A DNA stretch of 49,174 bases from an uncultured Treponema sp. (lineage in GTDB: Bacteria > Spirochaetota > Spirochaetia > Treponematales > Treponemataceae). The stretch spans positions 1 to 49,174 of the forward strand of contig CAMNBC010000002.1 in the NCBI GenBank assembly GCA_946532115.1, read 5' to 3'. Within the stretch, counting starts at the first letter, position 1. The number at the start of each line of letters is the position of its first letter. This document shows positions 26,380 through 46,779 of this stretch, one piece after another. The position numbers and the translations under genes are program-made. The notes under the pieces were generated by a model, which was given only the letters and a program-made list of their open reading frames with translations, made no database searches and was not told the DNA's origin.

Positions 26380-26468
26380 AAGTTAATAATATACAGGAAA
26401 AATAAGAATTTATAAATATATGGATAATACCTTTGCGTTAACTTTATTTTTCCTATATAATAAATGAA

Positions 26469-27467
26469 ATGAGAAACCTTGTAACAATGAAAGACATCGC
26501 AGACGAGCTGGATGTTACAGTAATGTCTGTTTCTAAAGCGTTATCAGGTAAAGACGGGGTGAGTGAAGATTTGAGGGCCAAGATTCTGGCAAAAGCAGAG
26601 GAACTTGGTTATAAGAAATCACAACCCTCGAATAATGATGACGGTACATCGCACAATATAGGCATTTTAATAGCAGAACGCAGTATGAATGCCAATGCTA
26701 CATATATGTCCCTGCAGCAGCCTCTTATTTCTAATCTTTTACAGTTAAATTACTACGGAATTACCGAAATTATTTCTGATGAAACAGAACATCTTCTTAT
26801 TCTTCCTAAAATATTAAAAGAAAACAAAGTAAATGCCTTTATTATTCTTGGTCAGATGAGCATAGAATATGTTCAGGTACTGAAAAATACAAATAAGCCA
26901 TTTCTGTTCCTTGAACATATTTATGATGATGTAAATGTTGGTGGAATTATTACAGATAACCTTTATGGCGGCTTTACACTTGCCAATTATCTGCTTGAAC
27001 AGGGGTGTAAAAGCATTGGTTTTGTAGGAAACATTCAATTTGCCGAAATTGTCATGGATCGTTATCTGGGAATTGCAAAAGCGCTTCTCCACCATGGCCT
27101 TGATTTAAAAAAAGAATACATAATTTCTGATGTAAATGATTATGGCGAAGAAATAAGTCTTATTTTGCCAGATAAAATGCCAGATGCATTTATCTGCAAT
27201 GACTGTCGTACAGCTTACAAGCTTATACATAATCTGGAAGGTCTTGAATATAACATTCCAAAAGACATTTCTGTTGCCGCATTCGATGACGGTATTTTTG
27301 CTGATATTGGAATCCCTAAACTAACTACCTACAGCATCAATTATAACACTATGGCACAACTTGCTGCAGAAAGTATGGTTCTGAAAATTGAGAATCCTAA
27401 TTACCATATTGGCAAGAAAGTTGTACACGGTGGCGTAATTATTCGTGACTCAGTAAGAAAAAACTAA
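26469..27467 (+). CDS. LacI-family transcriptional regulator
   Basis: N-terminal HTH TMKDIADELDVTVMSVSKALSGKDGVSEDLRAKILAKAEELGYKKS; periplasmic-binding-like effector domain. Confidence 0.93.
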   Translation: MRNLVTMKDIADELDVTVMSVSKALSGKDGVSEDLRAKILAKAEELGYKKSQPSNNDDGTSHNIGILIAERSMNANATYMSLQQPLISNLLQLNYYGITEIISDETEHLLILPKILKENKVNAFIILGQMSIEYVQVLKNTNKPFLFLEHIYDDVNVGGIITDNLYGGFTLANYLLEQGCKSIGFVGNIQFAEIVMDRYLGIAKALLHHGLDLKKEYIISDVNDYGEEISLILPDKMPDAFICNDCRTAYKLIHNLEGLEYNIPKDISVAAFDDGIFADIGIPKLTTYSINYNTMAQLAAESMVLKIENPNYHIGKKVVHGGVIIRDSVRKN

Positions 27468-27702
27468 ATAAATCATTCTCTCCCCCCACACAACCAGACA
27501 AATCTCTTTTTTTTCCTAAAGTTAAGGTTAAATCATTTTAAACTTAAAAAAATGATATTAAAAGATCTTATTTTTTGAGTTTTTTCTTAAATATGACTAC
27601 AGTCACAATTCATTTTTGAAGCATATCTACATAACTACCAATTGTTAGTAAAGAAAATCGATGGATTTTCAAAAAAATTTAGCATTTTTTTTACAATTTT
27701 TC

Positions 27703-27737
27703 TTGACATATTACTTAAGTCATATTACTATAGTCAT
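27703..27737 (+). promoter_or_regulatory. Predicted sigma70-like promoter (TTGACA-N17-TACTAT) overlapped by two 14-bp tandem repeats
   Basis: TTGACA 27703-27708, TACTAT 27726-27731; ATTACTTAAGTCAT and ATTACTATAGTCAT exactly adjacent at 27710-27737. Confidence 0.6.
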
Positions 27738-27891
27738 AGGGTAAGTAAAGTTATCCTAAAGTTAAAAATATATATTTAATAATGATTATTAAAAAATAGT
27801 TAAAAAAAAGATTTAAAAATGAATTAAAAAAAAGAAAAAAGTTATTTAAAAAACGAGTTATTAGGTGTTTTGATTTTTACGTACGTTATTG

Positions 27892-27932
27892 AGAGCCGTT
27901 TGATAGTTATCGGGTAATTATCAAACGGCTCT
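27892..27932. terminator. Strong 18-bp hairpin, possible terminator
   Basis: AGAGCCGTTTGATAGTTA-TCGGG-TAATTATCAAACGGCTCT. Weak T-tract (CTTCCCTTT) on + side. Confidence 0.6.
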
Positions 27933-27992
27933 TCCCTTTAACGGAATATACAATATACACAAATATTGTAACACAACAGTTTTTATGCAGGA

Positions 27993-28763
27993 TTATTCAG
28001 AATACTCAGCCAGAGCATAGGCATTGTGATTGTGGATACTTTCATCAGTCTCTGCTTCTACAGCAAAATATGAAAAGCCTGCCTTTTTTAATCCAAGATA
28101 CACCTCACGGACAACATCCTCAACAAAACGAGGATTATCATAGGCATTTTCTGTTACATATTTTTCATCTTTTCGCTTCAGCAGTGTATAAAGTGGAGTC
28201 GATGCACACTTTTCTATCATTGAAATTATATCTTCTATCCAGAAAAAGTCTTTATACAGCAGACGTACACTTACAGTTCCTCTTTGATTATGAGCACCAT
28301 ACTCACTTATTGCCTTGCTGCACGGACAAAGAGTTGCAATTGGCACCTGGATTGACACATAAAACTTTCGCCCCTCATCTTCGCTGACTTCACCTTCATA
28401 AGAGCACTTATACTGCATTATACCGGCAGCACCAGTTACAGGAGCTTTCTTTTCAATAAAATATGGAAATTCAACACGCCCAAAAGCCTTTTGTGCAGTC
28501 AGTTTGTTACGCATTTCCTCGAGCATATCAAGGAAATGGTGCATAGAAATATCTTCGTGGTATTTATGAAACACTTCTATAAAGCGCGACATATGCGTGC
28601 CTTTGAAGTTATGTGGAAGATTCACGAATAAATCTACAGTAGCTGTAGTCTGCTGCTGTTTTGCATTTTTATCAAGCACCGTTACCGGGTAATGAACACC
28701 CTTTACACCTACTTTTTTCAGCGGAACGGCGCGAGTATCTTCTTCACTTTGGATATCTCTCAT
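27993..28763 (-). CDS. folE2: GTP cyclohydrolase FolE2 (type IB)
   Basis: KVGVKGVHYPVTVLD, ATLCPCSKAISEYGAHNQRG signature. Confidence 0.92.
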   Translation of the reverse strand: MRDIQSEEDTRAVPLKKVGVKGVHYPVTVLDKNAKQQQTTATVDLFVNLPHNFKGTHMSRFIEVFHKYHEDISMHHFLDMLEEMRNKLTAQKAFGRVEFPYFIEKKAPVTGAAGIMQYKCSYEGEVSEDEGRKFYVSIQVPIATLCPCSKAISEYGAHNQRGTVSVRLLYKDFFWIEDIISMIEKCASTPLYTLLKRKDEKYVTENAYDNPRFVEDVVREVYLGLKKAGFSYFAVEAETDESIHNHNAYALAEYSE

Positions 28764-28774
28764 TATTTTGTACC

Positions 28775-29650
28775 TTATTTTCCCTTGCGTTCAGCACTTT
28801 CAAGTGTATTCTGCATGAGCATTGCAATAGTCATTGGACCTACTCCACCAGGAACAGGAGTAATAAATGAAGTTTTTTCCTTCAAATCATCAAAATCACA
28901 GTCACCAATCAAGCGGAAACCAGACTTTTTGCTACTATCTGGAATACGGTTTACACCAACATCAATTACGACAGCCCCAGCTTTTACCATATCACCTGTA
29001 AGAGTGTGTGGATGACCACTTGCTACAACAATAATATCTGCCTGGCGCGTAATTTCAGCCATATTTTTAGTACCTGTATGGCACATTGTTACAGTACAGT
29101 TTACATCTTTGCGGGCGAGCAATATAGAAACAGGCTTTCCTACAATATTAGAACGTCCAATTACAACAGCATGTTTACCACTTGTCTCAATTCCAGCCTT
29201 CTGTAAAAGAACAATAATTCCGTGAGGAGTACAAGGCAAGAAACCCGGGCGGCCTATCATAAGATTACCAACACTAACCGGATGGAATCCGTCAACATCC
29301 TTTTCCGGTGAAATTGCCATTATTACTTTTTCTTCATTTATATGCTTAGGCAATGGCAGCTGAACAAGAATTCCATGAACACTATCATCTGAATTAAGCT
29401 CATCAATAAGTTTAAGAAGGTCTTCTTCGCTTGTATTTTCCGGCAAGTGAACTGAACGATCTACCATTCCAACTTCAGCAAGAGCTTTCTGCTTACCGGT
29501 AACATAACTAACACTGGCAGGATTCTCTCCTACTAAAATAACTGCAAGACAAGGTGCAATACCTTTTTCTTTTAATTCTGCAACCTTAGCTGCAACCTCT
29601 GCACGAACATCTGCAGCAACCTGTTTTCCGTCAATAATAACTGCGCTCAT
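28775..29650 (-). CDS. folD: Bifunctional methylenetetrahydrofolate dehydrogenase/cyclohydrolase
   Basis: [51 protein letters not shown]. Start refined to [10 protein letters not shown] with GGAAGG upstream. Confidence 0.95.
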
Positions 29651-29750
29651 GTAACCTTCCATGCCCCTTTCTGTTTTATTGATAAACTGCCATAAAAACA
29701 GTATATTCTTATAGTAACAAAATATACTGAAATAAAAAAAAGGTCGCAAT

Positions 29751-30338
29751 ATGAAACGCTTTATTTCCATATTTATATCTCTGATTTTATGCACAACTGC
29801 GGTATTTGCGCAGGACAGTTATGAAGATGATGAAGATATTTATGATGATGGATATGTTTACGAGCAGAACGGTGCCGGAGACAGATTCCTTAAAATTGAT
29901 ATGGGTGCAAATTTCCCTTTAAACTTTGGCGATCAGTTATACACAGGTGCTGCAGCATCAATAGGTTTCTATTATTTTCTTAATAGTTATCTTGCCGTTG
30001 GTGGCGATGTCATTCTCAGCTATAATCTTTCTATAGGTAAAAAACCTTTAATTACGGTTCCTGTTACTTTTGGTGCTATGTTTCAGCCATGTCTTGGAAA
30101 ATTTGAATTTCCATTTATGTTGAATGTCGGATTTGCTACTGTAAGCTGCCAGCAGTTGATGTATTTCCCTGCTTTTTCCGCAAAAGCATCTGCAGGAGCT
30201 TTTTACCGCTGGAATGAAACCTGGTCTTTTGGTATATCAGCACACGGATACTGGATTCCTCAATGGTATACAAACCCGGAATATAACGATTACGGATTAT
30301 TTACTTCCGTTGATTTAAGTGTAAGATATCACTTCTAA
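29751..30338 (+). CDS. Predicted outer-membrane beta-barrel protein with signal peptide
   Basis: Signal peptide ending VFAQD; alternating amphipathic strands; C-terminal aromatic residue (VDLSVRYHF). Confidence 0.65.
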
Positions 30339-46706: not shown

Positions 46707-46779
46707 AGCCGACTAACAGACTCGAACTGTTTACCTGCGCGTTACGAGTGCGCTGCTCTACCAGGTGAGCTAAGTCGGC
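46707..46779 (-). tRNA. tRNA-Thr (anticodon CGU)
   Basis: GCCGACT-TA-GCTC-ACCTGGTA-GAGC-A-GCGCA-CTCGTAA-CGCGC-AGGTA-AACAG-TTCGAGT-CTGTT-AGTCGGC-T; full cloverleaf with one A-C mismatch at 31-39; CCA not encoded. Confidence 0.93.

Follow-up and report, generated by a model that had tools for sequence, protein, structure and literature searches.

A predicted small RNA gene conserved beside a LacI-family regulator gene in Treponema

What is encoded, if anything, in the 525 bp (27468-27992) that separate a LacI-family regulator gene from the convergent gene folE2 in a gut Treponema? The window considered here is a stretch of 49,174 nucleotides (contig C2) from the assembly of a gut spirochete related to Treponema bryantii (2.45 Mb, 72.7% complete). 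The original prediction described the gap as free of open reading frames (ORFs), with a promoter, three operator-like motifs and a long hairpin, and proposed either a noncoding RNA or an orphan regulated unit. Comparison within the genus argues for a regulated noncoding RNA gene, by virtue of a unit found in 13 species, compensatory changes in its 5' hairpin and conserved operators. The word orphan has to be dropped, as a LacI gene lies alongside in every species. The gap is likely to hold a small RNA gene controlled by the LacI-family regulator encoded immediately upstream. The features of the locus are given in Table 1.

Table 1. Features of the lacI-folE2 locus (window coordinates)
Feature	Position	Strand	Basis or remark
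LacI-family regulator gene	26469-27467	+	332 aa; Pfam LacI and Peripla_BP_3; orthologs in RNA-bearing species
Upstream operator TGACTACAGTCA	27594-27605		counterpart in 12 of 13 species
Promoter TTGACA-N17-TACTAT	27703-27731	+	sequence match; TTGACA unchanged in all aligned species
Promoter operator ATTACTTAAGTCAT	27710-27723		within the -35/-10 spacer; conserved there as TKACYNNRGTMA in the 10 closest species
Second operator-like copy ATTACTATAGTCAT	27724-27737		overlaps/contains the -10 box
Predicted noncoding RNA, ~200 nt	27737-27940	+	start inferred from promoter; full-length covariance-model match
5' hairpin of predicted RNA	27737-27758	+	27737-27744 pairs with 27751-27758; compensatory changes
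A-rich array of UUAAAAA motifs	27759-27856	+	6 motifs against 1.3 in dinucleotide shuffles
TTACGTACGTTA, operator-pattern match	27877-27888		conserved; full form in 5 of 13 species
Terminator hairpin and weak U-rich tail	27892-27940	+	fold; stem plus T-run at the same place in relatives
folE2	27993-28763	-	far side of the gap from lacI

The coding potential of the gap was examined together with its similarity to known RNAs. As predicted, no credible ORF is present: the longest in the predicted transcript has 15 aa in the window, and none exceeds 18 aa across species. A coding gene retained by relatives and deleted here was rejected as an explanation, no relative having one in the gap. Nor does the RNA belong to an Rfam family, since nothing in 27468-27992 scores above a gathering threshold; the sole Rfam match within the window is a tRNA gene (46707-46779, minus strand). 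In the open-access literature we found no paper describing this RNA, and none on small RNAs of T. bryantii. On the other side of folE2, the folD ORF and the divergent ORF of a TP0733-family outer membrane protein (28775-29794 and 29751-30338) overlap at their listed starts; since the domain of the folD product sets in at residue 54, the true folD start is probably downstream.

The distribution of the element was then considered. The unit formed by promoter, RNA and terminator is found in 13 Treponema species (that of the window and 12 others), always downstream of the orthologous LacI gene. The relatives with names are T. bryantii B25, XBD1002 and NK4A124, the others being assemblies from rumen or gut metagenomes. 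When 59 relatives were searched at the DNA level, the element was detected in three, each match starting at the promoter and none further upstream. Of 146 genomes of the genus, 11 encode LacI orthologs (59-91% identity), to which another search added further ones, and every ortholog has the same arrangement downstream. The covariance search proposed with the original prediction recovered the RNA at full length: a model built on ten sequences placed it in 8 of 146 genomes, each of which has LacI, and a broader one in 13 of 200 at E <= 0.001, again all LacI-bearing. As the broader model was trained on those 13 sequences, their own scores are not independent evidence, and its informative part is the absence of others: among the 200 genomes there is no confident RNA copy without a LacI ortholog. 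Independent RNAs lacking LacI were rejected by score, the remaining matches being at chance level (E 0.15-0.92), and none of 14 paralogous LacI genes inspected (36-40% identity) has the same RNA. Past the RNA, the next gene is folE2 in 12 species; in G065, where folE2 is missing from this position, the RNA remains with lacI. In L061 (G116) the lacI-folE2 gap carries after the terminator an extra segment, TTCTCCCCGTCATTGCAAG...CAACGACAAGGCGATTC, which looks like an inserted dispersed repeat.

Could this simply be an ordinary AT-rich stretch separating convergent genes, in which motifs arose by chance and a terminator serves lacI and folE2? The composition of the region and the position of a hairpin between convergent genes agree with such a reading, and so does the promoter: TTGACA-N17-TACTAT is present as predicted, but matches of this kind are not commoner than in shuffled sequence (4 found against 7.1 expected), so that its credibility comes from its conservation alone. 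The comparative data contradict this explanation, which we regard as very improbable. The promoter-to-terminator block (27703-27940) is 66-84% identical to that of the window, above both the fourfold sites of lacI (40-54%) and the spacer upstream (29-51%), these being all-column figures since A+T bias inflates ungapped identities in AT-rich stretches. The operators are conserved and unique, and the 5' hairpin covaries. All species have a terminator, with a stem and a T-run at the equivalent position. In G003, G015 and L055 a separate terminator directly follows lacI, so that the RNA is more than a 3' extension of the lacI mRNA.

Structural conservation was examined in the predicted RNA itself. 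In the 5' hairpin, four of the eight pairs show changes on both sides, and 88.6% of cells are paired, against at most 51% in slid-partner controls. The hairpin predicted at 27892-27932, which spans 41 bp, was confirmed (fold z = -5.8); its tail is weak in the species of the window (TTCCCTTT). RNAalifold, run unguided, recovers both structures. One exception concerns L055, in which pairs of the 5' hairpin are broken; G025, G094 and G065 also do not show this hairpin in the same form. Read by eye, G025 and G094 appear to close differently: UAGUAAAUAA, close to the 5' end, would lie opposite UUAUUUACUA or UUGUUUACUA ahead of the terminator. Between the two hairpins, the motif UUAAAAA or UUCAAAA occurs 5-8 times in 12 of the 13 species, against 1.0-1.8 times in shuffles, G065 having only 2 copies; its spacing is almost exactly 11 nt in G025 and G094. 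The locus thus presents the sequence features of a trans-encoded small RNA gene: its own promoter, a terminator, conserved structure and no ORF. This agrees with the A-rich noncoding transcript of about 200 nt in the original prediction. One further repeat of the original prediction, TCCTAAAGTTAA, does occur twice (27514 and 27754), its 27514 copy lying in the poorly conserved upstream spacer.

To the operators a common pattern, TNACYNNRGTNA, can be attributed: the ten closest species have a copy between the -35 and -10 boxes, and another lies 72-135 bp upstream. The upstream site had been called a perfect palindrome; it has two perfect 5-bp arms around a non-palindromic 2-bp centre, and is not a perfect 12-bp one. 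The two adjacent 14-mers at the promoter are as described, and three operator-like copies are indeed present in the window. The copy overlapping the -10 box, however, keeps its full form only in the species of the window and in G003, and is degraded in most species. In the 2.45-Mb assembly TGACTNNAGTCA, from the upstream operator, has a single exact occurrence and ATKACYNNRGTMAT has two, both in the RNA promoter, to which the strict operator form is essentially confined. The regulon that a genome scan for the operator was expected to identify did not emerge: strict counts elsewhere resemble those of a reversed-pattern control, and a multi-gene LacI regulon was rejected. The distances from operator to operator (117, 114, 113, 135, 72, 125, 84 and 102 bp) vary but share a helical phase (R = 0.73, p about 0.01 at 10.5 bp), which, with 8 mutually related species, is supportive and not decisive. 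The best period in a scan from 6 to 20 was 10.5, the textbook helical period being 10.5 bp. A common phase at varying distance suggests looping, since repression by looping is expected to leave such a phase. The downstream TTACGTACGTTA was rejected as a loop partner, its phase with the promoter operator not being kept (14.95-15.81 turns). In G025 and G094 the operators, of the form TAACYNNRGTTA, are confined to the upstream region, and no recognisable operator match was found in G065; simple occlusion of the promoter therefore does not fit all members.

The adjacent gene is the obvious presumed regulator, as it accompanies the RNA in every species. A Pfam profile search gives its protein matches over both cut-offs (PF00356, 39.4 bits; PF13377, 82.8 bits), making it a member of the LacI/GalR family, with a LacI-type helix-turn-helix and a periplasmic-binding-protein-like effector domain. 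Its conserved core begins MKDIADEL, with an in-frame ATG near 26487. In an alignment to 7ff4, the ARSL-type hinge segment after the helix-turn-helix is absent. A hinge helix with an ARxL-type motif is usual, though not universal, across the family. At the RNA locus the operator centres are a variable NN, without CpG. The Treponema paralogs also lack the usual ARSL-type segment, and a hinge-less LacI subgroup seems to exist within the genus. The promoter region of lacI itself (26432-26462) bears ACCTTTGCGTTAACTTTA (reverse AAAGTTAACGCAAAGGT), and a AAAGTTAA core is visible upstream of most lacI orthologs; the half-site spacing is unlike that of the RNA operators, and the site is possibly autoregulatory or that of another regulator. 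In L021-L039 many paralogous lacI genes are directly preceded by motifs like TTTAAGTAA / TTACTTAAA, which suggests autoregulation of these paralogs through a related half-site.

How might such a locus work? Repressor dimers would bind the operator between -35 and -10 and the second one upstream, on the same face of the DNA, and would probably loop it and close the promoter. Binding of a small-molecule ligand to the LacI effector domain would lift repression, and RNA polymerase would then make an RNA with a protective 5' hairpin, an exposed UUAAAAA array and an intrinsic terminator. This RNA may serve as a decoy that offers an RNA-binding protein many sites; a less specific reading is a trans-acting RNA with no need of Hfq. 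Dependence on Hfq was rejected: no PF17209 match was found in 39 genomes of the genus or in that of the window, with positive controls, in line with the way the supposed Hfq of Borrelia has been reinterpreted (PMC11607428). The repeated and drifting motif suggests the decoy. In its full form, a dedicated LacI-type sensor releasing an RNA whose array titrates an unrecognised RNA-binding protein in Hfq-less spirochetes, as a CsrB-like decoy for a different protein, the proposal is tentative and rather unlikely to hold in every part.

Two other functions can be envisaged for a conserved block of this kind. A LacI-regulated small RNA could instead pair with U-rich mRNA leaders. Base-pairing is the usual mode of most trans-encoded regulatory RNAs, including the CcpA-repressed RsaI (PMC9266662), and among the closest species conservation is good in blocks such as ATTTAAAAATGAATTAAAAACAAAA. 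Yet the array drifts, its 11-nt repeat in G025 and G094 is more in keeping with a series of binding sites than with a single seed, and Hfq was not detected in the genus; the best conserved segment (GTTTTTAACTTT) has a complement that shows no enrichment in four genomes, and antisense targets of the conserved GUUAAAAA segment were rejected on the same ground. We consider pairing quite possible, if somewhat doubtful; the decoy step taken alone is about as likely, and the decoy is narrowly favoured. The block could also act as DNA, phased A-tracts curving it and joining the operators, TTACGTACGTTA included, with an incidental transcript. The spacing of the A-tracts, about 11 bp, and the third operator-like site after the array in several species speak for it. 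The compensatory changes of the 5' hairpin are needed only by an RNA, however, a terminator closes the unit, and the downstream site is out of helical phase and lost in several species, all of which makes this action improbable.

Small RNAs are, to our knowledge, hardly described in Treponema. A conserved RNA that has a dedicated regulator and carries a repeated motif offers a concrete entry point in a genus without detected Hfq, and the inducer, the transcript and any protein that binds UUAAAAA repeats can be sought directly in T. bryantii, a cultured rumen spirochete.

In OxyR-OxyS and GcvA-GcvB, a regulator gene lies beside its small RNA gene. The same holds for SgrR-SgrS, where a transcription factor is encoded beside the small RNA gene under its control (PMC8743547). 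The Treponema locus resembles these three pairs in the adjoining of regulator and controlled small RNA genes; it differs in that their regulators are activators of other families, encoded divergently and working with Hfq, whereas here the gene of a presumed LacI-type repressor lies upstream in the same orientation and Hfq was not detected. A LacI/GalR-family protein, CcpA, represses the small RNA RsaI in Staphylococcus aureus (PMC9266662). CcpA is a global regulator, while the Treponema operator occurs essentially only at the neighbouring RNA promoter, and an Rfam search found no relationship between RsaI and the Treponema RNA. With the protein-sequestering RNAs of the CsrB/RsmZ type the RNA shares its noncoding nature and its many copies of a short motif, but those carry multiple GGA motifs in stem-loops; a CsrA sponge was rejected since, although CsrA is encoded, each Treponema RNA has 0-2 GGA triplets. 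The arrangement of the operators recalls the repression loop of the lac operon, with LacI-type sites around a promoter at phased spacing; unlike in lac, the output is an RNA, the operator centres are not CpG and the regulator is devoid of an ARSL-type hinge segment. Regulator genes beside small RNA genes and a LacI-family repressor of a small RNA were thus already known; what is new is the RNA family itself, which lies outside Rfam.
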